From an uncultured Porticoccus sp. (GTDB lineage: Bacteria > Pseudomonadota > Gammaproteobacteria > Pseudomonadales > Porticoccaceae), in assembly GCA_947259505.1 (NCBI GenBank), contig CAMYLT010000004.1, positions 62,001 to 126,000 of the forward strand: DNA of 64,000 nt. The letters run 5' to 3'. Both the position numbers and the translations under genes were made by a program. Positions 32,034 through 58,569 of this stretch are shown one piece after another (position 1 is the first letter of the stretch; every line of letters begins with the position of its first letter). Under the pieces are notes generated by a model. It ran no database searches. It saw only the letters and a program-made list of their open reading frames with translations, and was not told where the DNA came from.

Positions 32034-33932
32034 CTAGAGTCCAAAGTGATCGTTTTTAGTAGTAGCCTCGAACATCAATAGAGACCATAACACGGCACTG
32101 TGGTCACGCCGCCCCGACAAATGCTGCCCCACCAACTGCTCAAGATAAGACTGATTAAACAGACCTGTCTCCGCCAGCCCCCCTTCAGTGATAGAACTAC
32201 GCAGTCGGCTTTTGAGTGGTCCACGGAACCAGTTTGCCAACGGCACACCAAAACCCATTTTTGGCCTATAGAGCACATCATTAGGCAAATGAGGTTCCAG
32301 AGTTTTCTTTAGAACGTATTTACCTTCTCCACCCTTCAGTTTAATACCAGAAGGCAACCCCGATACCCATTCCATCAATTTATGATCCAACAGAGGTACT
32401 CGCACTTCGAGAGCGTGAGCCATGCTGGCTCGATCTACTTTGGTCAGAATATCTCCAACCAAATAGGTTTTCATATCCAGATATTGTATCAATGAAAGAG
32501 GGTCATCAGTGGGTGAACGATCAGCGTAATACTTAAACACCTCTATAGCCTGATAGCCCTGTATCTCTTTCTTCAATCCATCACTAAAAAGGCGCTGCCG
32601 TTGATCGTCTTTCGCCAGAGATACCGAATGGAGATAGGCTTCAACAGAATTTCTGGCAAGGGACTGAAAGGTACTTTTAGCACGAAAAACCTTGGGTGCC
32701 CAATCAGCCTTCGGGTACACACGACCCAGCGCGCCGAATACCGGCTTCCGTAGGCCCAAGGGCAGAGATGAGCGTAATTTTTCTTCATTCATATGCCAGC
32801 GGTAGCGCCGGTACCCGGCAAAGCTCTCATCACCACCATCACCAGACAGTGCCACTGTCACCCTTTGCTTCGCCAACTGGCAAACACGATATGTTGGTAT
32901 CGCGGAACTATCTGCATAAGGCTCGTCATAAAGGCTGGCAAGGATATCCAGCAGGTCAAAATCATCACTGTCTACCGTTTGCTCGAAATGATTGGTGTGG
33001 TAGCGCTCGGCCACCATGCGGGCAAATTCTGTCTCGTTAAACTGCTTAACATCAAAGCCTATCGCGCAGGTATTAACTGGATCCGGTTGCAGACCCGCCA
33101 TCATGGCGACCACGGCACTTGAATCTACGCCGCCAGACAGGAAAGCACCCAAAGGAACCTCTGCCACCATCCGGACATCCACCGCTTCCCGCATGCGCTC
33201 AAGTAACTCTCTGCAGGTATCCTCCTCCGAGCCTGTCTGGACTGGGGAGAAAGGGATATCCCAATATTCCACAGAGCGAGGAACAGGTTGCCCGCGTTTT
33301 ATCAAAAGCGTATGCCCTGGAGGTAACTTATAGACATCTCTATAGATTGTCTTTGGCTCAGGGATATAACCCAGTGCAAAGTAATCTTCTACAGCTTGAG
33401 GATTAAGCGCACGAGGAAGGAGAGGATGCGCTTTCAATACTTTCAGCTCTGAGCCAAACACCAACTGATTATCAGGTAACACCGCATAGAACAACGGCTT
33501 AATCCCAAACCGATCTCTGGCAAGGAACAGGGTTTGTTCACGACGATCATACAGGGCAAATGCAAACATACCCCGAAAATGATCTACACAATGCTCGCCC
33601 CATTCCTGCCAGGCATAAAGGATCACCTCTGTATCGCAGCGGGTGCGAAACCGATAACCCTTTTCTATAAGCTGTTTGGACAGAGTTCTAAAGTTGTAAA
33701 TTTCGCCATTAAAGACCACACAAAGATTGCCATCCTCACTATGCATCGGCTGCTGGCCAGATGACAGATCGATAATGGACAATCGTCTATGTGCCAAGGC
33801 AATACCAGGCTCTAGGTGTTGCCCGCCCTCATCGGGACCACGATGGAATTGTGACTGGTTCATGGCACCAAGCAAGTCACCATCCAGTTCCCGACGACCG
33901 GTTAAATCAAAAATTCCTGCTATACCACACAT
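32034..33932 (-). CDS. Amidotransferase 1, exosortase A system-associated (asparagine synthase type)
   Basis: The 632-residue enzyme has an intact glutaminase domain beginning MCGIAGIF (Cys2 nucleophile) with RGPDEGG near residues 32-38, and the synthetase domain with the P-loop FLSGGVDSSA near 265-274 and LSGDGGDESFAGY. It therefore can draw ammonia from glutamine, unlike the homologue at 11232. The full-length match and position beside the Daro_2409-type glycosyltransferase fit the XrtA amidotransferase 1 group (TIGR03108). It may amidate a uronic acid of the EPS. Confidence 0.92.
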   Translation of the reverse strand: MCGIAGIFDLTGRRELDGDLLGAMNQSQFHRGPDEGGQHLEPGIALAHRRLSIIDLSSGQQPMHSEDGNLCVVFNGEIYNFRTLSKQLIEKGYRFRTRCDTEVILYAWQEWGEHCVDHFRGMFAFALYDRREQTLFLARDRFGIKPLFYAVLPDNQLVFGSELKVLKAHPLLPRALNPQAVEDYFALGYIPEPKTIYRDVYKLPPGHTLLIKRGQPVPRSVEYWDIPFSPVQTGSEEDTCRELLERMREAVDVRMVAEVPLGAFLSGGVDSSAVVAMMAGLQPDPVNTCAIGFDVKQFNETEFARMVAERYHTNHFEQTVDSDDFDLLDILASLYDEPYADSSAIPTYRVCQLAKQRVTVALSGDGGDESFAGYRRYRWHMNEEKLRSSLPLGLRKPVFGALGRVYPKADWAPKVFRAKSTFQSLARNSVEAYLHSVSLAKDDQRQRLFSDGLKKEIQGYQAIEVFKYYADRSPTDDPLSLIQYLDMKTYLVGDILTKVDRASMAHALEVRVPLLDHKLMEWVSGLPSGIKLKGGEGKYVLKKTLEPHLPNDVLYRPKMGFGVPLANWFRGPLKSRLRSSITEGGLAETGLFNQSYLEQLVGQHLSGRRDHSAVLWSLLMFEATTKNDHFGL

Positions 33933-33935
33933 GTA

Positions 33936-35120
33936 TTAATTGCCCTGGACTCTGTTATCGGTAGTTTCATGCTGGCGAATACCGAGCACTTCATCGTAGA
34001 CACTCAGGTACTCAGCCACCGCTCTATCCCAGTTAAAAGTTTCCCGGACTAGCTCAAGTCCTCGTCGCCCCATACTTTGGCGTAATTCATCATCGGCCAA
34101 AAGTTGAGCAATAACTCCTGCAAGTTCTGCGGCATGATTGACAGAGACCAACCGACCATTGTGATTTTCCATAATCAGCTCTGGGTTTCCGCCCACTCGT
34201 GTAGCTACCACAGGCAAGCCAGTGGCCATTGCCTCAAGCACTGTATTGGAAATACCCTCTGCCAGTGATGGCAATACAAAGATGTCCATCAACTGTAACA
34301 ACTCTGGAATATCTTCCCGATCACCAGTCATCCAGACCAATTCGGACAACCCCATATCCCGAACACGATCAGACAACGACTGGAACAATGGCCCATCTCC
34401 TACCAGAATCAGTCTCAAGGTCTCCCTTAACTGCGGCGTGGCCGTTAACAGATGATTAAATGCTTCGATTAGCATGCCCTGATTTTTAACCTCAGCAAGC
34501 CGACCCACAGTACCCACCACAACTGTTTTCGGAGAGAGAAAACTTGAGGAGGGCAGGCAACTATTTTCTAGTATTAACTGACATGGTTTAAATTTCTTGG
34601 TGTCCACACCATTGTAGATCTGCCTCAACTTATGATCCGGCACATTAATGGTATGCTTTAGCCAAGACTGGAGGTCTTTGCTTACAGCAATATAACGATG
34701 GATAAATGGTTTTAATGCCTTTCGCAAAAGGTTATATTTTTTATTTGTACCATCAAGATCCTGAATATCCCGCCCATGCTCACCGTGAACCCGCTTAAGA
34801 CCCGCAATAGGTAATGTCACCAACTGCATTTCCAGGCTGGCAAGATTGCGAGTATGAACTAGTGCGGGACGAAGCCGACGAAGCACTTTCCATAACCGTC
34901 GGTATACCCCAAAATCTTGGCCGGGCTGCTTGTGTAGCTCAATCACTTCTACGCCAGGTACAATTATTCTACTGGCGAAATCATCGGCACCGGTAAGGCA
35001 GATAATTGCGTGGCGGTAGCGATCTGCTGGAGCGCGGTTGATGATATTAATCAAACCATTTTCTAACCCACCAGTACCCAAAGCGTAAATGATGTGAGCG
35101 ACGAGTGGTGGCTGGCTCAT
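33936..35120 (-). CDS. Sugar transferase, PEP-CTERM/EpsH1 system-associated (GT4, TIGR03088 type)
   Basis: The 394-residue GT-B protein begins VAHIIYALGTGGLENGLINI near residues 7-26, the start typical of this XrtA-associated family. The catalytic domain shows VGTVGRLAEVKNQGMLIEAF near 191-210, LILVGDGPLF near 228-237 and LPSLAEGISNTVLEAMATG near 278-296, where the retaining E-x7-E pair lies. Its ATG overlaps the stop of xrtA (ATGA). It adds a hexose or amino sugar to the growing chain. Confidence 0.92.
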   Translation of the reverse strand: MSQPPLVAHIIYALGTGGLENGLINIINRAPADRYRHAIICLTGADDFASRIIVPGVEVIELHKQPGQDFGVYRRLWKVLRRLRPALVHTRNLASLEMQLVTLPIAGLKRVHGEHGRDIQDLDGTNKKYNLLRKALKPFIHRYIAVSKDLQSWLKHTINVPDHKLRQIYNGVDTKKFKPCQLILENSCLPSSSFLSPKTVVVGTVGRLAEVKNQGMLIEAFNHLLTATPQLRETLRLILVGDGPLFQSLSDRVRDMGLSELVWMTGDREDIPELLQLMDIFVLPSLAEGISNTVLEAMATGLPVVATRVGGNPELIMENHNGRLVSVNHAAELAGVIAQLLADDELRQSMGRRGLELVRETFNWDRAVAEYLSVYDEVLGIRQHETTDNRVQGN

Positions 35121-36730
35121 CGACTCCTGGCCTCAACCAGTCCTTCATCCAATAATGACTCAAGTTGTGGGAGCATATTTGTCACAAAATCATCCAACAC
35201 TAAAGCAGCGGCGTGTTTTCCCAGTTGGGCATCACCAGAAGGAATAGGCGCGGAGACGGTGATAATTGCCGCATCACGCCGACCATCAAGCAATAAGCTC
35301 ATCACCTCCCAGATTTTGGCCATGTACTTATTATCCGTGTAATAACTGCCTACCCGATACCATTGCCACACCAATAATGCCTGACCGGGTCCCTTTAATA
35401 CTGCCTGTGTAACGTCAGTAGGTAGTGCATTATCCTGCAATCCTGTTGCCTGCTCTTTAGAGGCAACCCGCCAGTATCGAACATCGCTGTTGAATAACCG
35501 GTTCCTAGCGTTGACGACCTCTGCACCCTGCTTCTGCTCATGGTAATGGGCGACACTGAGACTTACTTGAGGCTTCCTTTTTCCATCATCCTCGTAGGTG
35601 TAAAACTGGTTAATATGGCCATCTGCCCCATGTGAAGAGGGGTACCAGTCCCAGCCTCGATTCCCTGTCAGCTGCCAATGTTCAAGGCTATCTGGAGAAG
35701 CTAGCTCCCCAAAAGATCCTGCTTGGTAAGCGTGGTTTATTCCGTAGCCCCAAGCCGGCCATAGGACCCCGACTACAAGCGCCAGAATGAGCGATGAAAT
35801 CAACTTTGCTGCATTCCTATTTACACGCCCAGCTGGGCTCTGAGCGACTACAATATGTTCATCAGGGACCTCGTCGGGATCGCGCCAGCGTGAGCCTATC
35901 AAAAAAAGTAGGAACATTATCAGACCGAAAAAGACCCACCCATAAATCAAATGATCCACACCAACCGCTAACTTCATGTCGCTGAAATGCCCAATCATCA
36001 CTATCATGTAAGCCCTGAGGCCGTTAGCGATGATAGGCACAATGGCGGATACAAGAATAAACGCCAACCTTTTCCAATTGTTTGTGTAATTGATATATGC
36101 AAACAGGCAGCCCAGTGTCAGTGATGCAATCAAGTAACGGATACCACTACAAGCTTCCACTACAGACCAATTACCACTCGGCAGCGAAATAAACATGCCA
36201 TCCCTATAAACGGGGATACCGGTCAGTTTGACTAATAGGGTTGTTACAGATGCCGTGTATTCCATCAACGAAGGAACCAACTCCTCTCCCATAGGCACTG
36301 CAAGAAACAAGAACGATAAGGGGAACATTAAAGTCCGAGAAATAGTTGCTCCCATGACCAGCACGAATGCCGAAACTATCATGGCAACCAGAGCCAACTG
36401 CTGAACCACAAGCACATCCACAAGATTGCCTAACAGCCAGACAAAACCTGCAATGGTCAGAGGAAACAAGGCGGGATAAAACGTCTCCGGACAAAAGTGC
36501 ATCCAGAAGCTCCGTCTGCGCCAGATTAACCAGGCAACCATCGGCACAATAACCATCCCGTGCGCATAAGTTTCGGAGCGAATCCACGTTTCAACCATAC
36601 GCCAAGCCGTCTGATGAAACAGACCCAAGAATGCGACCAGCAGAAACAGGGAGCACAAAGGAACCAGTAACAATCCCGGATTGTCGGGTTCGACGTTGTC
36701 ATCGAATAGAGTTGCTTTTTGATCATCCAT
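35117..36730 (-). CDS. xrtA: Exosortase A with C-terminal EpsI-like domain
   Basis: The protein (537 residues from the ATG at 36728-36730) has about eight membrane helices and the exosortase catalytic triad: Cys in VVEACSGIRYL, Arg in NGLRAYMIVMIGH and His in VDHLIYGW, roughly residues 180-265. The region after about residue 310 is a soluble EpsI-like domain (EHWQLTGNRGWDWYPS). Exosortases cleave and transfer PEP-CTERM proteins during export. The longest frame (to 36814) would overlap the preceding gene by 92 bases, so the shorter start is used; it overlaps by 8. No PEP-CTERM protein is encoded in this window. Confidence 0.93.
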   Translation of the reverse strand: MDDQKATLFDDNVEPDNPGLLLVPLCSLFLLVAFLGLFHQTAWRMVETWIRSETYAHGMVIVPMVAWLIWRRRSFWMHFCPETFYPALFPLTIAGFVWLLGNLVDVLVVQQLALVAMIVSAFVLVMGATISRTLMFPLSFLFLAVPMGEELVPSLMEYTASVTTLLVKLTGIPVYRDGMFISLPSGNWSVVEACSGIRYLIASLTLGCLFAYINYTNNWKRLAFILVSAIVPIIANGLRAYMIVMIGHFSDMKLAVGVDHLIYGWVFFGLIMFLLFLIGSRWRDPDEVPDEHIVVAQSPAGRVNRNAAKLISSLILALVVGVLWPAWGYGINHAYQAGSFGELASPDSLEHWQLTGNRGWDWYPSSHGADGHINQFYTYEDDGKRKPQVSLSVAHYHEQKQGAEVVNARNRLFNSDVRYWRVASKEQATGLQDNALPTDVTQAVLKGPGQALLVWQWYRVGSYYTDNKYMAKIWEVMSLLLDGRRDAAIITVSAPIPSGDAQLGKHAAALVLDDFVTNMLPQLESLLDEGLVEARSR

Positions 36731-37970
36731 TGTGGACACTGGGGCCCCCAGGACAGTGGCCTGATTCCAACCACCGCTTAACTGTCGGGAGATTATCTTC
36801 CCAACTGAAGTCAATCATGACTTTATGTCGTGCCAAGCGACCCATTTCTTCAGAATTCTCCTCTAGGACCAGCTGAATCTGGTTAACCCAGGCACTTTTA
36901 TCATCGCAAAGCAATACATGCTTACGGTGCTCAGCGTCAATTCCCTCAAGAGCTTGGGGAGAAACAATTACTGTTTTCGCCATGGCCATGGCTTCCAGCA
37001 CCTTATTTTGGATACCCCTGGCAACCCGAATTGGCACCACTGCGGCTTTGGCATATTTCAGGTAGGGACGAACATCTGGCACTCTACCGGTGACAATGAC
37101 ACCAGGAATTTTTGCCAACTGGCTAACTGTCTCGACAGGATTGCTGCCCACGATATAAAACCGAAGTTTGTTATTAGACATCCGTAGAATGGGGAAAACT
37201 TCCTTAGCAAACCAGCTGACAGCTTCTACATTCGGCCAATAATCCATGGCTCCAGTAAAAACCAGAGGTTTTTCATGTGCATCATAAGGGGTAGCGAGCT
37301 GAATATCTGGGGAGAAATAACTCGTATCCACCCCGTTGTTATAAAAACCAACTTTTCCTGCAATCTCTGGAGATAAAGACTTAAAAAGGTCCGCCTCTGC
37401 TAAAGAAACAAATAGGCTTGCATCAAACTCTTCTGCAACTATTTTTTCATACGCCAGCAATTTTTTTGCTTCACGACGATAAATCCAGCTAAGCGGAAAA
37501 GTCTTCTTAGTAGAATATTGGCGCCATTTGTCCGAATCGATATCGACAAAGTCGATAATTTTTCGTTCACCGTGCCATGCCTCGCCTGAAATATACTGGG
37601 CCATCGCAGAAGAGTAGATAACTGCTCGCTGGATATTGTGCCGGTTCAATTGCTCGTTAACCCAGCAGGCAAGCTCTTTACTGAAGAAATAGGGCAGCGT
37701 TAAGGCTACACCGGACATCAGCCCCGTCAGGCTTTTTATTTTAGCGTTTCGCTGATTGAGCCTTACAAAGCAGCATTCCTCACAAAAGGCACGCACCTGT
37801 GCTTGATACTGCCAATCTTCGGGATCATCTATAAAGGTTCCCAAATAAACACGATAATGCTCACTTAAATATTTTAATAACTGATAGGAGCGGATCTTAT
37901 CGCCCTTATTAGGAGGAAAGGGGATACGGTGGGATAGAAATAGTAGAGCCGGTTTCATGGGCTTTTTCAT
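36723..37970 (-). CDS. Sugar transferase, PEP-CTERM/EpsH1 system-associated (GT4, TIGR03087 type)
   Basis: The 415-residue protein begins with SHRIPFPPNKGDKIRSY near residues 13-29, diagnostic of this XrtA-associated glycosyltransferase family. The C-terminal domain has FTGAMDYWPNVEAVSWFA near 239-256 and PIRVARGIQNKVLEAMAMAK near 316-335, with the donor-binding Glu. It starts within the stop codon of the FemAB gene (1-base overlap) and precedes xrtA. Likely an inner-membrane-associated transferase. Confidence 0.92.
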   Translation of the reverse strand: MKKPMKPALLFLSHRIPFPPNKGDKIRSYQLLKYLSEHYRVYLGTFIDDPEDWQYQAQVRAFCEECCFVRLNQRNAKIKSLTGLMSGVALTLPYFFSKELACWVNEQLNRHNIQRAVIYSSAMAQYISGEAWHGERKIIDFVDIDSDKWRQYSTKKTFPLSWIYRREAKKLLAYEKIVAEEFDASLFVSLAEADLFKSLSPEIAGKVGFYNNGVDTSYFSPDIQLATPYDAHEKPLVFTGAMDYWPNVEAVSWFAKEVFPILRMSNNKLRFYIVGSNPVETVSQLAKIPGVIVTGRVPDVRPYLKYAKAAVVPIRVARGIQNKVLEAMAMAKTVIVSPQALEGIDAEHRKHVLLCDDKSAWVNQIQLVLEENSEEMGRLARHKVMIDFSWEDNLPTVKRWLESGHCPGGPSVHNG

Positions 37971-46169: not shown

Positions 46170-47579
46170 ATGACTAAAACAGATTTCCGAGACCTCTCCA
46201 CCGGTTACAAGATATTGGTAATAGTCGAACTCTGCCTTTATATAGGCGCTATGTTCCTTTCGCTCTTCGCCAATGAAAAGCTCGGATGGCCAGCACAAGA
46301 ACCGATGCCCGCTAACATTAGGGCCATTTACGCCATTATCTTTTCTCTCCTAATCTTGCTGACATCGTTATCCTTGGGCCTTTACAACCCCAGAATGCGC
46401 GAAAATTACCGCAGCATTTTCCGCAGACTGGTAATTGCCATCGTCATGGGGTCAGCAGAATTTATCCTTCTTATGCTGATAGCCATCAACACGCAGCCAT
46501 TCACCACAGAAGTCATGATGACTGCCGCCTTGATTGGGCTCATCCTGACCAGCCTGGTCCGGTTCACCATCATGCAACTTGACCTTCTCGGCTTTAACAA
46601 GGCACATGTGCTCGTACTTGGCTCTGGAGAAAGAGCCTCTATCATTGAACGCAGAATGCGCCGAAAAGTTGATCGACACGGCTTCACCCTCAAAGGGTTT
46701 GTCGTTATGTCAGGAGATTCCAGCGAGGGTATAAAAAGAGAAAAACGCATCTCAATAGAAAATGGTGCACTTCTATCTTATGTACTGGAAAACAACATCG
46801 ATGAGATAGTTGTAGCCTGCGATGAAAGACGAAACAACCTCCCGGTTGACGAGCTTTTTGCCTGCAAAATACGCGGCATTAACATTATCGATATTCTCGA
46901 CTTTATTGAGAGAGAAACGGGGCAGATTGCTGTAAACCTCATTTATCCCAGCTGGGTAATCTACTCAAATGGATTCGCATCAATCCACTACCTTCGCAAT
47001 GCTCTAGACTGGCTGTTCAATGCGGCAATGGCGGTAACCATGATGTTATTTTTGTGGCCAATCATGCTAATAACCGCGCTCATCATCAAAATAGAAGATG
47101 GCATTAATGCGCCAATTTTCTATTACCAGGAAAGAGTAGGGCTTGATGGCAGAATTTTCAGCATCGTCAAATTCCGCAGCATGCGCACCGACGCAGAGAC
47201 TAATGGCGCAGTATGGGCATCTTTAAACGACAAGCGAACAACACGAATCGGTAACTTTATACGCAAGTACCGGATTGACGAATTACCTCAAATCTACAAT
47301 GTATTGAAAGGTGAGATGGGCTTTGTAGGGCCCAGACCAGAAAGACCGGAATTCGTGCAAGACCTAATTAGGGCAATACCTTATTACAACGAGCGACATA
47401 ACGTAAAACCTGGACTCACCGGCTGGGCGCAATTAAAATATCCTTACGGTGCGACTGAAGAGGATTCCCTGGAAAAACTCAAATACGACCTGTATTACAT
47501 AAAGCATCGCAGCTTTCTACTTGACCTAAACATCCTCATTCGTACAGTCGAAGTTGTTTTGTTCGGCAAAGGACGCTAA
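46170..47579 (+). CDS. Undecaprenyl-phosphate sugar transferase, TIGR03013 XrtA-system type
   Basis: The 469-residue protein has four N-terminal membrane helices (about 15-130), a Rossmann-like middle domain with VLVLGSGERASIIERRMRR near residues 147-165, a fifth helix near 285-308 and a C-terminal bacterial sugar transferase domain: KFRSMRTDAETNG near 331-343, RKYRIDELPQIYNVLKGEM near 367-385 and GLTGWAQLKYPYGAT near 416-430. Such WcaJ-like enzymes load the first sugar phosphate on undecaprenyl phosphate. It is monocistronic, converging on prsR. Confidence 0.93.
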   Translation: MTKTDFRDLSTGYKILVIVELCLYIGAMFLSLFANEKLGWPAQEPMPANIRAIYAIIFSLLILLTSLSLGLYNPRMRENYRSIFRRLVIAIVMGSAEFILLMLIAINTQPFTTEVMMTAALIGLILTSLVRFTIMQLDLLGFNKAHVLVLGSGERASIIERRMRRKVDRHGFTLKGFVVMSGDSSEGIKREKRISIENGALLSYVLENNIDEIVVACDERRNNLPVDELFACKIRGINIIDILDFIERETGQIAVNLIYPSWVIYSNGFASIHYLRNALDWLFNAAMAVTMMLFLWPIMLITALIIKIEDGINAPIFYYQERVGLDGRIFSIVKFRSMRTDAETNGAVWASLNDKRTTRIGNFIRKYRIDELPQIYNVLKGEMGFVGPRPERPEFVQDLIRAIPYYNERHNVKPGLTGWAQLKYPYGATEEDSLEKLKYDLYYIKHRSFLLDLNILIRTVEVVLFGKGR

Positions 47580-47604: not shown

Positions 47605-48960
47605 TCAAGATCGTATTTTGTATTTTTCGAGGAAGTTATAAAGCGTTGGCCGAGTGACGCCCAGTAGTTTTGCCGCTTCAGAAACATTATCGTCTGCATT
47701 CAGCATAGCCCGTTGAATAGCCTGTTTTTCAGCGCTCTCTCTGACTTGCCGAAGATTAAAGGGTGCAACCTCATCATCTGCCGCCGACAGCTCAAGATCC
47801 CCCAAAGTAATATATACATTGTCCGCCATGATAATGGCTCGCTTTATCCGACTTTCTAGCTCCCTGACATTTCCCGGCCAATCATAAGCCTCTATGGCCC
47901 GGACAGATTGCTTGTCAAACCCTTTTATAGACTTGCCAAACTCTTTGTTGAATCGCGCCAGAAAAACCTTTGCCAACAACAACGCATCGTCCTTTCTCTC
48001 TTTCAATGAGGGTATCTGGATAGTAATTTCACTGATCCTGTAGTAGAGGTCTTCTCTGAACCGCCCCTCTTCGATAAATTTAGTGAGATCCTGGTGTGTT
48101 GCACAAATAATGCGAGCATCTATAGGGATCTCAACCCTCCCCCCGACTCGCTCTATAACCCTTTCCTGAAGAAAACGTAATAGTTTTGCCTGCAACTCAA
48201 GGGGCAGATCTCCAATCTCATCAAGAAATAGCGTACCCCCGTGCGCATATTCGATCTTCCCTTGAGTCTGCTTCACTGCGCCGGTAAACGCTCCTTTTTC
48301 GTAGCCAAATAACTCACTCTCCAAGAGGTTCTCTGGAATTGCGGCACAGTTGATAGCGACCATTTTCTGGCTAGCCCTTGGACTTAACTCATGCAACGCA
48401 CGTGCAACAATCTCCTTCCCTGTTCCACTCGCCCCCAAAAGCAATGTGGTTATATCAGAAGGTGCAACCTTTTCCACGGTTCGACAAACCTTCAACATTT
48501 CTGGGCTTGCAGCTATCACCCCCCTCAGAGAGGAACCCTCCCCCTTCTCCTGCAACCGCCGATTCTCCAACTCAAGCTCGCACACTTTATATGCGCGCTC
48601 CACAATTAAAGTGAGAATCTCAGGGTCCACCGGCTTCTGATAGAAATCATAGGCACCCAGCCCTATCGCCTTTACAGCATTGGCCCTGTCATCATCTCCG
48701 GTCACAACAATGATTTTAGTTTCGGGAGACATGGACAAAATTTCAGTCAGAGTCGCCAATCCTTCTGAGACCCCACCTGGATCTGGGGGCAAACCTAGAT
48801 CAAGCAAGGCGACCCCAGGATTATGACGACGTAGCTGCGCGATCGCATTTTCCCTATCTCCCGCCACCACCACATCATAACCGTCAAAACACCAACGAAG
48901 CTGACTCTGCAGGCCAGCATCATCCTCAACAATCAGCAATCGCCTCTTTGAATCCTTCAC
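47605..48960 (-). CDS. prsR: PEP-CTERM-box response regulator transcription factor PrsR (sigma-54-dependent)
   Basis: The 451-residue NtrC-like protein has a receiver domain with LLIVEDDAG near residues 7-15 and phospho-acceptor Asp in ALLDLGLPP near 53-61, an AAA+ domain with Walker A GASGTGKE and the sigma-54-contact motif EKGAFTGAV, and a C-terminal Fis-type helix-turn-helix (NVSEAAKLLGVTRPTLYNFL). The GTG start at 48958-48960 is chosen because AAGGAG lies 6 bases upstream, inside the end of prsK; longer starts have no such site. PrsR should activate sigma-54 promoters with PrsK; one candidate target is the gene at 53932. Confidence 0.93.
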   Translation of the reverse strand: MKDSKRRLLIVEDDAGLQSQLRWCFDGYDVVVAGDRENAIAQLRRHNPGVALLDLGLPPDPGGVSEGLATLTEILSMSPETKIIVVTGDDDRANAVKAIGLGAYDFYQKPVDPEILTLIVERAYKVCELELENRRLQEKGEGSSLRGVIAASPEMLKVCRTVEKVAPSDITTLLLGASGTGKEIVARALHELSPRASQKMVAINCAAIPENLLESELFGYEKGAFTGAVKQTQGKIEYAHGGTLFLDEIGDLPLELQAKLLRFLQERVIERVGGRVEIPIDARIICATHQDLTKFIEEGRFREDLYYRISEITIQIPSLKERKDDALLLAKVFLARFNKEFGKSIKGFDKQSVRAIEAYDWPGNVRELESRIKRAIIMADNVYITLGDLELSAADDEVAPFNLRQVRESAEKQAIQRAMLNADDNVSEAAKLLGVTRPTLYNFLEKYKIRS

Positions 48961-48961
48961 A

Positions 48962-51055
48962 TCAGACTCCTTTACCATCCAGCTCATTATGCGACGACAC
49001 ACACCCCGACAAGCAGGGAAGAAAAATCCTAAATACCGCTCCTTGACCAACCTCACTTGTTACGGCTATATCTCCACCAAGGGAACGAATGTACTCGCGA
49101 CTTTCGAATGCACCAACACCCATTCCAGTCAGCCCCTTGGTTGAATCAAATGGCTTGAAAAGACGATCTCTCATAAACTCCCTATCCATACCGACACCCG
49201 TATCAGCAACGGAAACACACACTTTCCCTGGCATCGCTTCAACTTTTACAGAAACCCTCCCGGTCTTAGGAGTGGCATCCTGAGCATTTTGAATAATATG
49301 GCCAAAAACAGTCGCCAGCTGCTCTCGATCCGCAGTTACAACAGCATCTTCGACACATAACTCCAACTCGGGAGCAGGCTCACGCACTGCTGCCGCACTG
49401 ACCACCCTCTCAAGCAGCCCCCCAAGATCAACATTCTCAAGAGACTGGCCTCGCACACCACTCCTCATTTGCTCCATCAAGCGAGTCATCCGAGAGACCG
49501 AATTTTTAACAGTGGAAACAACGTCATCCACAAACTCTGGCTTATGCTTATGCTTTTCCGCATTGGCTACAATAAGGGATTGCTGAGCAAGTATGTTTTT
49601 CAAGTCATGAACAATGTATGCGGACAGACGGTTAAAAGCCTCGAACTGCCTTGAACGAATCAATGCCTGATCTGCTTGATACTGAGCCAAGTGACTTGCA
49701 GCTTGCTGGCCCGCCATCTTCAGAAGGTCGCGATCTTCCCAATTGATTGTTTGCTGAAGGTCAGAACGCCGTACCAGCAAAAATCCTAAGCAGTCCTCTT
49801 TCAAAATCAAAGGAACAATTAACCAGATGTTAGGGATAGCAAGCAACCACTCCGGCAACACAAGATCACCGTATATCCCCCTATCTCGAATATATTCATC
49901 ACAGTCAACGACCCAGTGGGTACGAGCCATAAAATTCAAGAGAGAATCGAGTGAATCCAAGTCCATCCCATCAGGCTCGGGCATATGCCATCTGGCTAGC
50001 AATGCATAACGGCCTGTTTCATTTTTCCCCCACAGAATACCCCCAGGACTTTCAGTTAATTTGGCAATAGACTGGATAACCCTTTCAGGCACACTTTCCG
50101 CACTTTCCGCAAGGTTTCGGGTAAATTTAAGCCACTCTTCACGATAATCATGCTTATAGGAAAAAAAATGCTTGCTCAAAAAAACGCGGAATTTGGCCCT
50201 GATTTTGTCAGAGAACAACAGTGTAAGTAATAAAATCCCAGCCCCAAAGAAGAACACAATCTGTAGGACATTGCCCCAAGTCCCACCATAAAATCGGATG
50301 AAATAGCCAACAACGGCCATCACCAACAGATACACCCCTGCCCCCATAATGGTCGCTGTATGAAACACCACACGTCTCGAGACGTGGATATCCACTTCAA
50401 ACTTAGGGTTTCGAGCCACAGCAATTGCAATAAGGGGTGCAGCCATAGCATTTACTAATCCACGGCCTTCCCAGAGATTTAAACTAATCCTCTTAAACAA
50501 CAGCGCATCGGAATACATAAAAAAATCGTACGCAAAGAAACTACCAACACCTAAACACAAAAACTTGGCTGACCAACGCTGCGCCACATTGGAATTTCTA
50601 AAGATTTGCTCTACCAGTGTCAGACCCGCGATAGACAGCACGACCCAGAGAATCAAAACAGGGTCACGCAGTACCGTACCGCCAGCGACTAAAGACCTTG
50701 AAATAAACGGAATAGCAACCAGCGCTCCCAGCAAGATTAAAAGTAGCGAGAATGCCACGGCAAGCCAGAAAAAATGCGATCTATGAGAACTATTTCCGGC
50801 CTTTTTATCCATTGCACTCAACAGGAACAAGCACCAAGACAAACTCCTGATTAGCTCCGCCAATTGCATGACCTCAAATGATACTTGGAATCCAAGCTCT
50901 CCCAGCACCACAACCCCAGCCCAAAGAGTAGATCCAGCACAAGCAAATAGCAGCAAGACCCCTTGGGCGCGCCCCCTCCAGGAAAAAACAATCAATGTCG
51001 TCAGCACCAGATAGGCAACAAACGCGGCCAGATAGCTCAATATCCCAATATTCAT
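48962..51055 (-). CDS. prsK: XrtA/PEP-CTERM system histidine kinase PrsK
   Basis: The 697-residue protein has eight or so N-terminal membrane helices up to about residue 300, a GAF-like domain near 320-465 (WVVDCDEYIRDRGIYGDL), the phospho-acceptor helix YIVHDLKNILAQQSLI near 484-499 (His in HDLKN), and an ATPase domain with HIIQNAQDATPKTG near 592-605, DTGVGM near 622 and GLTGMGVGAFESREY near 647-661. It matches the PrsK family. It precedes prsR with overlap and is probably its cognate kinase; the signal is unknown. Confidence 0.93.
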   Translation of the reverse strand: MNIGILSYLAAFVAYLVLTTLIVFSWRGRAQGVLLLFACAGSTLWAGVVVLGELGFQVSFEVMQLAELIRSLSWCLFLLSAMDKKAGNSSHRSHFFWLAVAFSLLLILLGALVAIPFISRSLVAGGTVLRDPVLILWVVLSIAGLTLVEQIFRNSNVAQRWSAKFLCLGVGSFFAYDFFMYSDALLFKRISLNLWEGRGLVNAMAAPLIAIAVARNPKFEVDIHVSRRVVFHTATIMGAGVYLLVMAVVGYFIRFYGGTWGNVLQIVFFFGAGILLLTLLFSDKIRAKFRVFLSKHFFSYKHDYREEWLKFTRNLAESAESVPERVIQSIAKLTESPGGILWGKNETGRYALLARWHMPEPDGMDLDSLDSLLNFMARTHWVVDCDEYIRDRGIYGDLVLPEWLLAIPNIWLIVPLILKEDCLGFLLVRRSDLQQTINWEDRDLLKMAGQQAASHLAQYQADQALIRSRQFEAFNRLSAYIVHDLKNILAQQSLIVANAEKHKHKPEFVDDVVSTVKNSVSRMTRLMEQMRSGVRGQSLENVDLGGLLERVVSAAAVREPAPELELCVEDAVVTADREQLATVFGHIIQNAQDATPKTGRVSVKVEAMPGKVCVSVADTGVGMDREFMRDRLFKPFDSTKGLTGMGVGAFESREYIRSLGGDIAVTSEVGQGAVFRIFLPCLSGCVSSHNELDGKGV
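48967..48972 (-). promoter_or_regulatory. Strong Shine-Dalgarno AAGGAG that decides the prsR start
   Basis: AAGGAG on the coding strand is spaced 6 bases (TCTGAT) from GTG at 48958-48960. It lies over the last codons of prsK, so translation of the two-component pair is coupled. Confidence 0.75.
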
Positions 51056-53764: not shown

Positions 53765-53787
53765 GCATGTCAGTTTTTTTAACATGC
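53765..53787 (+). promoter_or_regulatory. Inverted repeat, candidate enhancer-binding site upstream of the sigma-54 promoter
   Basis: GCATGT at 53765-53770 and ACATGC at 53782-53787 form a perfect 6-bp dyad with an 11-base centre rich in T. Its middle lies about 120 bp upstream of the predicted transcription start, the usual distance for an NtrC-type activator site. The T-tract is in the loop, so it is not an intrinsic terminator. Binding by PrsR is inference. Confidence 0.4.
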
Positions 53788-53870: not shown

Positions 53871-53886
53871 TGGCCTGTTTTTTGCT
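53871..53886 (+). promoter_or_regulatory. Sigma-54 (RpoN) -24/-12 promoter of the HPr-rel-A cassette
   Basis: TGGCCT at 53871-53876 and TTGCT at 53882-53886 match the consensus halves TGGCAC and TTGCW, with GG (53872-53873) and GC (53884-53885) separated by exactly 10 bases. The predicted start is near 53897, about 35 bases before the ATG at 53932. The PrsK/PrsR pair, whose regulator carries a GAFTGA motif, is encoded about 5 kb away. Confidence 0.75.
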
Positions 53887-53931: not shown

Positions 53932-54591
53932 ATGGAACACGAACCACAAGATCAAAGAATCATGGCAGATACGACTACTCAGCCCAAGGCTGTAAATATA
54001 TCTCGTCGCAACTTCTCAAGGCTTGGTGCAGCTACACCCATTCTGATGTCACTAGCTAGTCCATCTGTACTGGGTGCGCCCTGCTTGTCCAACATGATGT
54101 CGGGGCATTTATATCAGGATAGGGGTGAGTGCAGCTTCGGCTGGAGTCCGGGCGGCTGGAAAAATCCTGGTGGCAGCGAGCCGGACTGGAATAGCACACC
54201 ATTTGTATATGGCACCTACGATCCGACTAGAAGCTATACCAAGCAAAATGGTACTCAGCAAGTTTGCGGAACCAACAAGCGGAATGAACATGAGTGCTAT
54301 GCTGGCGGAACAACGCTTGCACAAGCACTTGGCTTCTATGGACTGGCTGTGCCCGGAGCACTTCTCAGCTTGTCTGGCTATAGCTTGGTAGATATCCTTA
54401 ACGAAAATACCGGGGGAAGCACTGGTAATTTTGCCGGTCACTTTGTGGCTGCACTGCTAAATGCCTCACACAGCGGAATAACCTACGTTTTAACGCCGGC
54501 ACAGCTTGTTGAAATTTATAATGACCCATCAAAAATACCGGAACCCTACACGGGAAATATAGGATCATTCCTCGACTCTACTTGGGTGTAG
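53932..54591 (+). CDS. Exported protein with twin-arginine-like signal, putative HPr-rel-A system substrate
   Basis: The 219-residue protein has SRRNFSRLG at residues 24-32 followed by a hydrophobic stretch to VLGA (48-49), a Tat-like or Sec-like signal. The mature part is rich in Gly, Ser and Thr and has four Cys (about 51, 67, 109 and 118). No recognised enzymatic motif is present. An IPEPYTG segment near 202 is not followed by a membrane helix, so it is not a PEP-CTERM protein. ATG 53962 is an alternative start; neither has a good ribosome site. It follows a sigma-54 promoter and precedes a terminator and three probable maturation genes. Confidence 0.72.
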   Translation: MEHEPQDQRIMADTTTQPKAVNISRRNFSRLGAATPILMSLASPSVLGAPCLSNMMSGHLYQDRGECSFGWSPGGWKNPGGSEPDWNSTPFVYGTYDPTRSYTKQNGTQQVCGTNKRNEHECYAGGTTLAQALGFYGLAVPGALLSLSGYSLVDILNENTGGSTGNFAGHFVAALLNASHSGITYVLTPAQLVEIYNDPSKIPEPYTGNIGSFLDSTWV

Positions 54592-54665
54592 TATAGGAAG
54601 AGCGCATACTGTTTACTTTTATCAGCAGAATTCACAAACAGTCGCCATCTATATTTCTTTGTTTT

Positions 54666-54703
54666 AAAGTATCGGCACGATGAACAGTGTCGATACTTTT
54701 TTT
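54666..54703 (+). terminator. Intrinsic terminator/attenuator overlapping the start of the PqqD-like gene
   Basis: AAAGTATCG (54666-54674) pairs with CGATACTTT (54691-54699), extended inward by GCAC with GTGT, leaving an 8-base loop; it is followed by an unbroken T run to 54703. The ATG of the next gene (54680-54682) begins at the edge of the loop. The hairpin should limit read-through from the substrate gene and may hide the start codon. Confidence 0.72.
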
Positions 54704-54970
54704 ATTTCACACGAAACAGATATTCTCTGCCACCAGTGGGGCGATGAATCTGTCATTTACCTGCCCGTTTCTGGAGAAACCCACTTGATGGAGGCGGCAG
54801 CTGCTGAAATATTACTCACCATCGCTGCAGCACCAACATGCTTTGAGCAATTAAAAGTACTATTAACAGCCACATACCAAGAAACATCCGAAAGCGAGAT
54901 AAATGATTACCTTACCAATACACTGCAAGAGCTTCAAAATATCGACTTGGTTACCACAGTAAGGGAATAG
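54680..54970 (+). CDS. PqqD-family peptide chaperone, HPr-rel-A system
   Basis: The 96-residue protein has the PqqD-like layout: Trp in CHQWGDESVIYLPVSGETHLM (residues 13-33), then a small helical part (AAAAEILLTIAAAPTCFEQL) and a second helical segment. This matches the PqqD-related proteins of the HPr-rel-A system (TIGR04353). PqqD proteins bind leader peptides of ribosomal peptides. Its start codon lies within the terminator hairpin. The next gene begins four bases after its stop. That it binds the 219-residue protein is inference. Confidence 0.82.
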   Translation: MNSVDTFFISHETDILCHQWGDESVIYLPVSGETHLMEAAAAEILLTIAAAPTCFEQLKVLLTATYQETSESEINDYLTNTLQELQNIDLVTTVRE

Positions 54971-54974
54971 CATC

Positions 54975-55883
54975 TTGTTGCTTTCAGCCACGCCACATCA
55001 ACAACTTTCTGATCAACTGGCAGGGGAAGGAGTAAATTTAAAAATTGGACCATTCCATATAAATTTAACCTCTACACTTCCCGGCGTAGCAGACAATCTT
55101 TTTCACCTTTATGGCGCCTACCCCATTCAATCTTCTACAGAACTTATTGATTTTTATATCCAGTTAAAAGCACCTTCAGCCATAAGGCGCTGGATCCGGC
55201 CACAGGCAACCTTCTCATTTGACGGACACCTTCCCTTCAAGCCCCTCCCTCAGAGGCAATCCTTTGCTATGTTTGAGTGGGGATTAAACTGGTGCGTTGC
55301 AAATAATGCTCATCAATATCTAGTGATACACTCTGCCGTCGTTGAAAAAAACGGCAAGGCATTTATATTTCCAGGAACTCCCGGCAGCGGTAAAAGCACC
55401 CTTTGCGCTGGACTCGTCAGCCAAGGATGGAGGCTGCTATCCGATGAAATGGCTCTAGTCTCAATCACAACAGGCTTAATCACACCTATCCCAAGACCCA
55501 TTAGCTTAAAAAATGAGTCAATTGAAATTGTGAAGTCTTTATCGAATGAACTTTACGTTGGGAAGCCTATTCACGACACGGCAAAAGGCGATGTAGCACA
55601 TATGCGACCACCACAAAGCAGCGTCGAAAAAAACGATGTACAAGCCACTCCTGCTGCCGTAATTTTTCCCAAGTACCGCAAGGGAGCGCACACTGAACTA
55701 TCAACATTGAGCAAAGGTCGGACATTTCTTAAACTGGCTGAAAACAGTTTCAACTATCATATATTAGGGTCTATGGGTTTCAATGTATTAACCAATCTGG
55801 TCGAACAGTGTCAATGCTTCAACTTCACTTATCAAAACCTGGATGAGGCATACAGCACACTAGGCAATCTTATCAATGCATGA
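54975..55883 (+). CDS. HprK-related kinase A
   Basis: The 302-residue protein resembles HPr kinase/phosphorylase: HSAVVEKNGKAFIFPGTPGS runs from residue 119, covering the conserved His and the Walker A loop GTPGSGKST (134-142), followed by LLSDEMALVS near 155-164 with the catalytic Asp. It belongs to the HPr-rel-A kinase group (TIGR04352). Similar HprK-like enzymes phosphorylate a Ser in lasso peptides of the paeninodin type. Start is TTG at 54975, preceded by AGGGAA. It may phosphorylate the exported protein or a lipid or sugar; not known. Confidence 0.88.
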   Translation: MLLSATPHQQLSDQLAGEGVNLKIGPFHINLTSTLPGVADNLFHLYGAYPIQSSTELIDFYIQLKAPSAIRRWIRPQATFSFDGHLPFKPLPQRQSFAMFEWGLNWCVANNAHQYLVIHSAVVEKNGKAFIFPGTPGSGKSTLCAGLVSQGWRLLSDEMALVSITTGLITPIPRPISLKNESIEIVKSLSNELYVGKPIHDTAKGDVAHMRPPQSSVEKNDVQATPAAVIFPKYRKGAHTELSTLSKGRTFLKLAENSFNYHILGSMGFNVLTNLVEQCQCFNFTYQNLDEAYSTLGNLINA

Positions 55884-56964
55884 GCCGATCCAACAAAACT
55901 GCCTAACCCGCTTCCTCAGAAATCCTGACGATGAAGCTCCCAACTTTTCCTTAAACGAATGGCAGCTACTCTTTCGCGAGTCGCGTCGTACCAATTTGTT
56001 ATGTCGAATTGCTTACCTGACCAAACAAAAAAAGCTTTTAGGTTACCTTCCCGAAAGACTCAGGGAGCACTTAATAAGTGCCGAACTCCTAGCAAGCACC
56101 AACTTGCGCTCAGTAAAGTGGGAAGTCATACAAATTTATAAGGCGTTAAGTGAATCAAAAATCCCCTTTGCATTACTCAAAGGCGCAGCTTACGTGATGA
56201 GACAAAGCGAAGCATCACATGGTCGCTTATTTGGAGATGTTGATATTCTTGTCAGAAAAGAACACTTAAAGGAAGCGGAAAGAGCCCTTATAAAACACGG
56301 CTGGTTTGGCACGAAGATAGATCCTTACGATCAGAAATACTACCGCACATGGATGCATGAACTCCCCCCCCTGAAGAATCTAAAAAGACAAACAGATTTA
56401 GATGTACACCATACAATTTTGCCACCAACCGCCACTATCAAACCGGATATTCACAAAATCTGGCAATCTTCAGAACCCATACCCGGCTATCCAGGCATGT
56501 ATGTTTTATCGCCCATTGACATGGTATTGCACAGTGCAACTCACCTGTTTCATGAAGGAAGTTTTGACCAAGGACTTCGTGATATCGTCGACCTGGATGC
56601 CTTGCTAAGGGAAGGCTCACAGAAAATTCCGAACTTTTGGCAAGAACTTATGGCAAGAGCTGAGTTGCTAGAGTTATCTCGACCACTCTATTACGGGCTT
56701 CGCTATTGCAAGTTGCTTCTAGGCACACCAATAGCCCTAGAAGACTGCGAGCTCCGCTCTTATAAGATCGCCCCCCCAGCACTCACCAGGCTTATCATGG
56801 ACAAACTATTACTGAAGGCCATGACGCCAAACTACATTGGAAACAAACCTCGCCTATTAGGACTAACCCAGTTTATTTTGTTTGTTAGATCCCATTATCT
56901 GCGTATGCCGTTGAAGCTTTTGATACCCCATCTTTTACGGAAAGCCATCAAGCCCGACACGTAA
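55876..56964 (+). CDS. Nucleotidyltransferase family protein (NTP_transf_5 type), HPr-rel-A cassette
   Basis: The 362-residue protein has the nucleotidyltransferase strand FALLKGAAYVMR near residues 97-108, the metal-binding Asp pair in GDVDILV near 121-127 and TDLDVHHTIL near 173-182. This is the uncharacterised nucleotidyltransferase group that recurs beside HprK-like kinases and PqqD-like proteins in natural-product clusters. It overlaps the kinase gene by 8 bases and ends the cassette. A role in adding a nucleotide or sugar-phosphate to the exported protein or its modification is only a hypothesis. Confidence 0.85.
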   Translation: MHEPIQQNCLTRFLRNPDDEAPNFSLNEWQLLFRESRRTNLLCRIAYLTKQKKLLGYLPERLREHLISAELLASTNLRSVKWEVIQIYKALSESKIPFALLKGAAYVMRQSEASHGRLFGDVDILVRKEHLKEAERALIKHGWFGTKIDPYDQKYYRTWMHELPPLKNLKRQTDLDVHHTILPPTATIKPDIHKIWQSSEPIPGYPGMYVLSPIDMVLHSATHLFHEGSFDQGLRDIVDLDALLREGSQKIPNFWQELMARAELLELSRPLYYGLRYCKLLLGTPIALEDCELRSYKIAPPALTRLIMDKLLLKAMTPNYIGNKPRLLGLTQFILFVRSHYLRMPLKLLIPHLLRKAIKPDT

Positions 56965-56985: not shown

Positions 56986-57198
56986 CTAGGAGATATGAAG
57001 CTTATTCAACGTCCTGCTGAGAACATCTAATTTAATGAAACAGCCGAAAATCATCACCGCCAACCCTGCATTAAAGAGTGTCAATATCTCAAAACCAAGA
57101 AAATAGTAATTGCCGCTCAGACGAACAAACGTAGACAGAACGCAAAGCAACACCCCTGCATAACCAACCAGACTCGATACAATCGATACAAATTTCAC
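56986..57198 (-). CDS. Small two-helix membrane protein, uncharacterised
   Basis: The 70-residue frame encodes two hydrophobic segments (about 6-27 and 37-53) joined by a short polar stretch with a Tyr pair. It starts with GTG at 57196-57198, preceded by GGGAGAGG, a good ribosome site, which supports translation. It lies between two plus-strand genes on the opposite strand. No family or function was recognised, and it could still be a chance frame. Confidence 0.5.
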   Translation of the reverse strand: MKFVSIVSSLVGYAGVLLCVLSTFVRLSGNYYFLGFEILTLFNAGLAVMIFGCFIKLDVLSRTLNKLHIS

Positions 57199-57369: not shown

Positions 57370-58569
57370 ATGTACGAACAATTTTACGACCTCAAGGCCG
57401 AACCCTTCCGCTTGAGTCCCGATCATAGATTTTGCTTTAACCACAAGAGCTATGCAAAAGCAAAAGCATACATGCAGTATGCTTTCCAGCGCGCCGAAGG
57501 ATTTGTCATGATTACAGGCAGGCCTGGAACTGGCAAAACCACACTGGTAAGCGATCTCATTGAAAGCCTTCGCCAAGATCAGGTTACAGTGGGAATGTTG
57601 GTCTGCACTCAGCTAGGTGCTGACGATCTCTTAAGAATGGTCGCTGATACTTTTGGTCTTCCATCAAATACGGAGCACAAATCACAGCTTTTACAACAGC
57701 TCACCAAACTTTTCGTCAATGGCTACAAATCAGGTAAACGGGCATTATTAATCATCGACGAAGCACAGGATCTATCCACTGGTGCACTAGAAGAGCTGCG
57801 TCTTTTAACGAATTTGCAAATAAACAGGGAACCTCTTCTTCAAATTTTCCTTCTCGGACAAGAAGAACTTCGAAATATCGTGCAACAGCCAAACATGGAA
57901 CAAGTCCACCAGAGACTTGTGGCCGCATGCCACCTCGCATCACTTACAGAAGATGAAACCAAATCTTACATCAAGCACAGACTCTGCCAAGTAGGCTGGC
58001 AAAACGATCCTGCGATTAGCGAAGCTGTTTACCCCGTGATTCACAAGGTAAGTCAAGGAATTCCTAGAAGAATCAACATGATTTGCAGCCGACTGTTTCT
58101 CCATGGCTGCGTTGAAGAGCTTCACCAAATAGGGATAAACGATGCAAAAATTGTTCTCTCAGAGATCGATCAAGAACAACTGACTTCAAGAGAGTTACCC
58201 TCAGAACTCGACTTCACTGTCCCTGATATATATGAAGCAAGCAAGCTCACGACAGAGCATCAGGGTGAACTTAAAAAAAAAATAATTGATCCACAGCCAT
58301 ATACCTCCCCCCCGGTCGCACCGGAGCTTTCTCTAACACCAATGGATTCCCAAGTTAAAGAAGAGTCTCTCAGCGTTGATGACTTTGACGGATCAGTTTC
58401 TTCTGAAAAATATACCGGGCCTGATACCCGAAAAAAGGAACGACGCTCTTATAATGACAGGAGGGCGGCAGTTCGTTACGAACCCGGCAAAAAAGACCGC
58501 CGCCAAAACCCGGGGCGAAGAGGAAAAGACAAAAAGACCGGCAAGTTTCCTTGGCAATTCTGGGTTTGA
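57370..58569 (+). CDS. XrtA/PEP-CTERM system-associated ATPase (ExeA/GspA-like AAA)
   Basis: The 399-residue protein begins MYEQFYDLKAEPFRLSPDHR, a start shared by this XrtA-associated family (TIGR03015), with Walker A GRPGTGKTT near residues 51-59, Walker B LLIIDEAQD near 127-135 and a sensor region with GIPRRINMICSRL near 231-243. The C-terminal 60 residues are Arg/Lys-rich and low in complexity (KKERRSYNDRRAA), probably a basic tail. It may assist envelope assembly in the exosortase system. It ends just before the aminotransferase gene. Confidence 0.9.
   Translation: MYEQFYDLKAEPFRLSPDHRFCFNHKSYAKAKAYMQYAFQRAEGFVMITGRPGTGKTTLVSDLIESLRQDQVTVGMLVCTQLGADDLLRMVADTFGLPSNTEHKSQLLQQLTKLFVNGYKSGKRALLIIDEAQDLSTGALEELRLLTNLQINREPLLQIFLLGQEELRNIVQQPNMEQVHQRLVAACHLASLTEDETKSYIKHRLCQVGWQNDPAISEAVYPVIHKVSQGIPRRINMICSRLFLHGCVEELHQIGINDAKIVLSEIDQEQLTSRELPSELDFTVPDIYEASKLTTEHQGELKKKIIDPQPYTSPPVAPELSLTPMDSQVKEESLSVDDFDGSVSSEKYTGPDTRKKERRSYNDRRAAVRYEPGKKDRRQNPGRRGKDKKTGKFPWQFWV

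Follow-up and report, generated by a model that had tools for sequence, protein, structure and literature searches.

An exported protein with a twin-arginine leader and a conserved serine pair as the candidate substrate of HPr-rel-A enzymes in an uncultured Porticoccus species

Four consecutive forward-strand genes, called as open reading frames (ORFs) at positions 53932-56964 of a 64,000-nucleotide (nt) stretch of an uncultured Porticoccus sp. (assembly GCA_947259505.1, contig CAMYLT010000004.1, positions 62,001 to 126,000; this whole stretch is hereafter the window), encode an exported protein of 219 amino acids (aa), a PqqD-like protein, an HprK-related kinase and a nucleotidyltransferase (Table 1). 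The most likely reading is that they specify one secreted protein and three others by which it is modified in the cell before export, and the cassette is probably an HPr-rel-A system that acts on the exported protein. No target of the HPr-rel-A enzymes, which were named by NCBI, was found in the literature and family databases searched, and they here gain a candidate one, in the shape of a protein family with its leader and two serines that may act as acceptors, along with a promoter and a regulator. While the kind of machinery is known, the substrate family, the serine motif, the PrsR/sigma-54 promoter and a second candidate type of substrate are new. The last three of these, the motif as a conserved serine pair, also go beyond the initial annotation of the window, as does the recognition of a Tat-like leader (Tat, twin-arginine translocation). 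That annotation had claimed the four-gene cassette and its placement inside an exosortase A locus, and both are borne out: the ORFs are present with all three enzymes above their profile cut-offs, and a profile scan of the window recovered XrtA, PrsK, PrsR and EpsB_2, along with other XrtA-system and exopolysaccharide genes. The gene coordinates were right, and the cassette as a unit should begin at 53768, with its promoter included.

Table 1. Coordinates of the cassette, its promoter and the associated exosortase A locus genes within the window
Feature	Position	Strand	Evidence
PrsR-type enhancer box TGTCAGTTTTTTTAACA (motif 1, PEP-CTERM regulatory region)	53768-53784	+	10/12 specified positions of TGTCGNNNNNTTTTACA
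Sigma-54 -24/-12 promoter TGGCCTGTTTTTTGCT	53871-53886	+	10/12 positions
Exported protein (candidate substrate), 219 aa, no named family	53932-54591	+	ORF; relatives at 78/80 named loci
RR-leader, residues 25-50 RRNFSRLGAATPILMSLASPSVLGAP, Tat-like signal and probable recognition region	54004-54081	+	RR conservation
Cys51-x-Ser53-x3-Ser57 motif, predicted acceptor site	54082-54102	+	Conservation
Body domain (C67 ... SPGGWK ... ALLNAS ...), unnamed extracellular domain	54130-54588	+	Conservation
PqqD-like peptide chaperone (HPr-rel-A system), 96 aa	54680-54970	+	TIGR04353 47.1 bits, cut-off 35
HprK-related kinase A, 302 aa, TTG start	54975-55883	+	TIGR04352 395.7 bits, cut-off 200
NTP_transf_5 nucleotidyltransferase, 362 aa	55876-56964	+	PF14907 190.9 bits, cut-off 31.2
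Exosortase A (XrtA)	35117-36814	-	TIGR03109 339.3 bits, cut-off 208
EpsB_2	46170-47579		Profile match within exosortase A locus
PrsR, sigma-54-dependent response regulator, probable activator of the substrate gene	47605-49056	-	TIGR02915 721 bits
PrsK histidine kinase, XrtA/PEP-CTERM system	48962-51055	-	TIGR02916 779.7 bits
XrtA/PEP-CTERM system-associated ATPase	57370-58569	+	TIGR03015 324.0 bits, just below cut-off 324.5

Co-occurrence of the exported protein and the predicted modification enzymes

Class, family and phylum refer to those of the source genome (Gammaproteobacteria, Porticoccaceae and Pseudomonadota). Using the TIGR04352 cut-off, the kinase was found in 41 of 369 evenly drawn class genomes, 16 of 98 family genomes and 51 of 299 phylum genomes, 43 of the latter lying outside the class. 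The class loci comprise the window and 40 fetched loci, scanned with profiles built from the window proteins, while 20 of the 43 kinase-positive loci of other classes were hand-picked to span families. The named loci are the best 80 of 401 confirmed kinase relatives, which we take to be mainly beta- and gamma-proteobacterial, with Malonomonas rubra presumably outside both; cultured environmental bacteria such as Sulfuriferula multivorans, Methylobacter marinus and Massilia species carry the cassette. Unnamed and named loci overlap, and yield 133 substrate proteins, 126 of them non-redundant. Two loci were not counted (L121, with a weak kinase match and no substrate; L123, without kinase), and the complete cassette of L122, from another family of the order, stands outside the class and family counts.

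Co-occurrence of the exported protein with the enzymes, which the initial annotation had made the point on which its proposed substrate should stand or fall, is close to complete. A relative of the 219-aa protein lies upstream of the kinase gene at 31 of the 41 class loci (window included), a protein sharing only the leader is found in the same place at nine, and one locus is interrupted by a contig end; a candidate is thus present at 40/41 class loci, as it is at all fifteen further family loci, which carry a 219-aa relative, and at 78/80 named loci. Among the named loci the relative is upstream of the kinase gene in 76, including one weak match (L199, 39 bits), and in two Sedimenticola loci it follows the nucleotidyltransferase gene on the other strand; of the remaining two, L141 is cut by a contig end and L175 has no relative. 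Gene order is mostly fixed, and at L094 the relative sits approximately 0.6 kb further upstream of the kinase. In the window the PqqD-like ORF ends four bases ahead of the kinase ORF, and PqqD was detected by profile in 79/80 named loci. BLAST clustering of the called genes of 138 loci distinguished four common families (134, 124, 119 and 91 loci), with the next family reaching 35; the PqqD cluster numbers only 91 loci because low similarity divides this family among clusters. A 264-aa protein with a signal-like N-terminus (L178:11787-12578 and relatives) also recurs close to the cassette, at 23 of the 138 clustered loci, and no NCBIfam match at 1e-20 was found for it.

A profile built on the exported protein's relatives (alignment A2; 36 of 56 matches, with nine second-type and eleven other proteins left out) gave matches at E <= 1e-5 in 39/369 class genomes, with at most eight candidates scored per genome, and the kinase is also above cut-off in 34 of these 39. 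The other five were considered as cases of a substrate without a kinase, and this was rejected: in four (G080, G084, G099 and G215) only the body domain is present, forming the end of some other secreted protein, and the fifth (G184) has a diverged miniature cassette (L240:3609-6138) that encodes a PF05402 PqqD protein, a kinase relative scoring under the TIGR04352 cut-off and an RR-leader protein of 87 aa in which an SGN motif occurs. The kinase-positive G015 has an extra match outside its cassette, and this too is a body-only tail. The leader, serine motif and body were not found together in class genomes lacking a kinase of this type, within the limit of eight candidates per genome; the leader and serine motif are seen only in genomes with such a kinase, and not always beside it.

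The body domain (GCTPGYWK ... LLNA ...) also occurs C-terminally in cassette-free secreted proteins (L234:1226-2650, L236:2423-4312, L237:1446-2315 and L238:1307-5290), and no Pfam model covers the body in the three of these that were scanned.

Anatomy of the exported protein

The 219-aa protein belongs to no family in NCBIfam (release 20.0) or Pfam, and the 36 of 56 relatives scanned gave no Pfam match and a single weak NCBIfam match (E 0.0042). In an alignment of the window protein with 59 of its 78 named relatives (A3; the 19 left out were long, truncated or divergent), invariance is confined to R25, R26, S53 and S57, while S43, C51, G58, S61, C67, G70, P73, W76, W86, L176 and N177 are at least 90 % conserved. 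Among 117 unselected non-redundant class I exported proteins, an RR dipeptide occurs within the first 120 residues in 115, and C-x1-3-S-x3-S is present at any position in 108. The leader has the consensus S-R-R-x-[FL]-x-K, followed by a hydrophobic stretch with the consensus APVxxTLASRPV. As expected of a Tat substrate, the RR motif lies near the N-terminus and the genome encodes TatC (249.7 bits). A PEP-CTERM tail was not found in the exported protein, which ends in DSTWV; the genome has TIGR02595 matches (E <= 1) at three other places. The predicted structure has a mean predicted local distance difference test score (pLDDT) of 79.7 overall, and is good from about residue 70. Candidates for a solved relative were rejected as unconvincing (best PDB sequence match E 0.38; best fold match E 0.53, probability 0.04).

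A second candidate substrate type in the class and in other classes

The nine leader-only proteins of the class loci constitute a second type, whose bodies are unrelated to the 219-aa protein and whose C-termini carry CxxS in six loci and xxS without the Cys in three. In the other classes, an upstream RR-leader protein ending in C[WF]xS is encoded at 14/20 loci (thirteen identified by script and one read by eye inside an over-long ORF), with tails such as SCWTSF and TCFASLQMPRG; tails of the form C[WFLYMVI]xS occur on 19 of the 433 same-strand ORFs of the other-class loci, these candidates included. The RR-leader proteins with C[WF]xS tails (loci L245-L264) may represent a second substrate family. 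The occurrence of unrelated bodies in the same slot, with an RR leader and a Cys-proximal serine in common, provides the best evidence that the protein is the substrate and that the serine is the acceptor.

Predicted modification enzymes and comparison with known systems

Kinase residues H119, K140, D157 and E158 are invariant in 31 aligned sequences (A1; hand-picked from 57), and in the alignment with the HPr kinase 1JB1 (E 0.0014) the first three fall on its His, P-loop Lys and Asp, with a second Asp of 1JB1 at the position of E158. The His, P-loop Lys and Asp pair are catalytic in HPr kinase. The D121xD123 motif of the nucleotidyltransferase is invariant in 37 aligned sequences (A4; hand-picked from 80, as were the 25 sequences of alignment A5). 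Its structural model (pLDDT 91.4) has as best fold matches the nucleotidyltransferase-like 5uvd (E 0.0035) and ANT(2'')-Ia (E 0.016), with no fold match at E <= 0.001.

The cassette agrees with the HPr-rel-A system (TIGR04352, TIGR04353) in the kinase and the adjoining PqqD-like protein, both above cut-off here, and differs in that NCBIfam release 20.0 returns no model for the exported protein; the substrate family, serine motif and promoter are now added to the system. The closest described chemistry is that of the lasso peptides, where, according to the available text of PMC9266682, a C-terminal Ser receives a phosphate from an HprK-like kinase and this phosphate is extended with a hexose by a homologue of nucleotidyltransferases; the initial annotation had correctly drawn this comparison for the kinase. 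The HprK-like kinase, the nucleotidyltransferase, a ribosomal product as their (here presumed) target and a conserved acceptor Ser are shared with paeninodin (PadeK), ThcoK and pseudomycoidin (PsmK/PsmN) as portrayed in the same text, and a PqqD-like (B1-like) protein occurs in related lasso clusters (PMC9266682 and PMC7533575, in the parts available), as it does here. In contrast to the lasso peptides, the candidate substrate here is a Tat-type exported protein of approximately 200 residues rather than a short precursor with a C-terminal Ser, and in the window type the conserved serine pair lies near the mature N-terminus. A lasso cyclase and leader protease are absent from the common families beside the cassette in 138 loci, B2 not having been searched for by profile. 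The SynChlorMet kinase ScmC (TIGR04249) is a distant relative when the kinase alone is compared (31.9 bits, below the cut-off of 125). Neither the action of such machinery on Tat-type exported proteins nor its membership in the PrsR regulon was found in the literature searched, and HPr, kinase and nucleotidyltransferase are all unmentioned in two papers on RiPP recognition elements (PMC12710340, PMC7470986; RiPP, ribosomally synthesised and post-translationally modified peptide).

The promoter and the PrsR regulon

The sigma-54 site ahead of the substrate gene starts 103 nt after the start of the enhancer box and 45 bases ahead of the ATG. The 17-nt box TGTCGGAATTTTTTACA was found by motif discovery in the upstream regions of substrate genes. 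In the available text of PMC1569441, the PEP-CTERM regulatory region is described as a 17-nt motif that ends in TTTACA and has a -24/-12 site 32-92 nt beyond it, and is attributed to PrsR; compared with this description, the box and sigma-54 pair fits motif 1 and motif 2. The locus and the response regulator are likewise those of the PEP-CTERM/exosortase A and PrsK/PrsR regulon of that paper, whereas the exported protein differs from the PEP-CTERM proteins in its RR leader, its own modification enzymes and the lack of a detectable PEP-CTERM tail.

Counting as a pair at least nine box positions and at least eight of twelve sigma-54 positions, spaced 60-130 nt apart, pairs precede the substrate gene in 28/39 class, 13/15 family and 55/75 named loci, counts which are partly so by construction because the motif was derived from the same upstream regions. 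As controls, pairs precede the nucleotidyltransferase gene in 0/41 class, 0/15 family and 1/79 named loci and the kinase gene in 1/41, 0/15 and 1/80, respectively, and shuffling gave 0.25 on average for the class count. Within the window, the pair of the substrate gene is the sole one on both strands of the 64 kb when at least ten box and eight sigma-54 positions are required, while the looser thresholds (nine and eight) return seven pairs, six of them on the other strand. The plain number of sigma-54 matches in the window was rejected as a signal, as 29 matches against 22.8 expected is not above chance. The three PEP-CTERM hits of the genome (27.0, 24.8 and 17.8 bits), which lay outside the motif derivation, each have a pair upstream, with box scores of 11, 9 and 9, sigma-54 scores of 11, 11 and 9, and the sigma-54 site 54-128 nt before the first start codon; these provide independent support for the motif. 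Distances from box to promoter concentrate near 80, 92, 102 and 112 nt, which is suggestive of helical phasing; this is not relied upon, because in the class sample periods of 10.5-12 nt fit about equally and related species are not independent.

The regulator follows the kinase closely within the class, with PrsR encoded in 40/41 kinase-positive genomes (the exception being a genome that is 75 % complete) against 66/328 others (P = 1.3e-23). XrtA exceeds its cut-off in 35/41 kinase-positive class genomes against 38/328 others, and in 6/20 kinase-positive genomes of other classes, which rules out exosortase A as a universal required partner; within the class, PrsR is the tighter associate. In the other classes, a box of at least nine positions with a sigma-54 site was found ahead of 0/11 substrate genes tested. 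The wiring to PrsR and the exosortase is thus regional, and weak outside the class. Within it, the promoter and regulator data indicate that the cassette seems to be co-activated with biofilm-matrix proteins of the PEP-CTERM regulon. According to the available text of PMC9850573, floc formation by an Aquincola strain involves a PEP-CTERM gene that depends on RpoN, so that the exopolysaccharide matrix is the expected arena.

Proposed mechanism and alternatives

From the gene content, the co-occurrence, the conserved serine pair, the catalytic residues and the promoter pair, the following course of events is proposed. Phosphorylated PrsR would bind the box at 53768 and drive sigma-54 transcription of the substrate gene alongside the PEP-CTERM genes. 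In the cytoplasm, the PqqD-like protein, judging by its family, would bind the RR-leader region and present the exported protein to the HprK-related kinase, which would phosphorylate Ser53 or Ser57, near the Cys. The nucleotidyltransferase may then add a group to the phosphate, either a hexose as in pseudomycoidin or a nucleotide, and the modified, folded protein would exit by Tat, shed its leader and work in the exopolysaccharide layer specified by its own locus. Leader-guided phosphorylation and elaboration of a Tat-exported protein, driven by PrsR, is the best explanation of the whole, and a probable one. It is favoured because of the near-total co-occurrence, the mostly fixed gene order and the four common families, and because S53 and S57 are invariant in the 60 selected relatives and the kinase catalytic residues, apart from E158, and the nucleotidyltransferase DxD are kept. 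The second substrate type, the promoter pairs set against their controls, the tie between PrsR and the kinase, the pairs ahead of the PEP-CTERM genes and the lasso-peptide precedent also speak for it.

Several observations weigh against this explanation. No modification has been seen, and conservation is the sole support for the inferred role of the leader in PqqD binding. The second D of the kinase motif is replaced by E, and the S-x3-S motif is missing from L194 and L199, both among the 19 relatives dropped from the alignment. The window protein has SGHLY at the place where SGNxS prevails among relatives. It is also without the Arg found in the common leader motif LASRP, an Arg near the end of a Tat signal being said to avoid Sec. 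Promoter pairs are missing from 11/39 class loci and are in part circular in their derivation, and XrtA is incompletely associated with the kinase in the class and more so elsewhere. Among the other-class loci, 6/20 have no candidate substrate beside the kinase, five of these also being without PqqD. Furthermore, L175 (6001-6921, a Nitrosospira metagenome-assembled genome) has a kinase and nucleotidyltransferase with no recognisable substrate or PqqD beside them, PqqD was not found at the class locus L104, which has substrate and kinase, and a full-length copy of the exported protein (L239:1905-3101, reverse strand) in the kinase-positive G296 lies away from the cassette with no enzyme within its 6 kb.

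A compatible variant, which has a real if minority claim, is that the nucleotidyltransferase adds AMP or UMP or a sugar-1-phosphate rather than a hexose, giving a nucleotidylated or phosphodiester-linked product, perhaps joined to exopolysaccharide. The kept DxD motif and the resemblance of the model to nucleotidyltransferases, including ANT(2'')-Ia, are in keeping with this, and the review of pseudomycoidin (PMC9266682, in its available text) leaves open whether PsmN is a true nucleotidyltransferase; on the other hand, a hexose is found on the sole described product of such an enzyme pair met in that text. It is improbable that the exported protein is no more than a co-regulated partner, with the enzymes acting elsewhere, on a small peptide or a different protein. 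The usual clients of PqqD-like proteins are short peptides, and L175 and six of the twenty other-class loci have a kinase with no adjacent candidate, but a search for a hidden small precursor peptide, covering 4329 small ORFs located up to 2.5 kb away at 130 non-redundant loci, brought out none when the twelve largest clusters were inspected by eye, and the two body-unrelated types in one slot have only the leader and Ser motif in common. Least probable is that the kinase serves regulation, as an HPr-type kinase/phosphorylase which responds to metabolism and governs the output of exopolysaccharide or of PrsK/PrsR, with the exported protein as an accessory, since, despite a distant relation to HPr kinase (PF07475 19.0 bits, below the cut-off of 33.3, and the 1JB1 match) and the presence of PrsR in all but one of the kinase-positive class genomes, the kinase falls far short of the score of a canonical HPr kinase/phosphorylase (TIGR00679 23.4 bits, cut-off 240), and in the other classes, where XrtA passes its cut-off in 6/20 genomes and a good PEP box precedes 0/11 substrate genes tested, an RR-leader protein still accompanies the kinase at 14/20 loci.

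If leader-guided modification of the exported protein is correct, entire Tat-exported proteins would come within the reach of RiPP-style chemistry, and a second type of output, without a PEP-CTERM tail, would join the exosortase A/exopolysaccharide programme connected with floc formation. More tentatively, the cassettes may produce a widespread, undescribed group of secreted phosphate-decorated proteins, in which RiPP-type machinery would mark a Ser near a Cys on Tat-exported proteins of unrelated bodies, with the signal region serving as leader; in the beta- and gamma-proteobacteria these would be wired to PrsK/PrsR, deployed with PEP-CTERM proteins and possibly linked covalently to exopolysaccharide.

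Neighbouring genes

Directly downstream of the cassette, on the opposite strand, an ORF at 56986-57198 encodes a small two-helix membrane protein of approximately 70 aa, which matched no Pfam family. It resembles a small-ORF cluster drawn from 19 of the 130 non-redundant cassette loci, membership being judged by eye. Of the twelve largest small-ORF clusters this is the sole protein-like one, the three examples seen all being encoded on the other strand, while the rest resemble shadow ORFs. An asparagine synthase-type amidotransferase (PF00733) is encoded at 32034-33932 on the reverse strand, among the XrtA-locus genes and 20 kb from the cassette.

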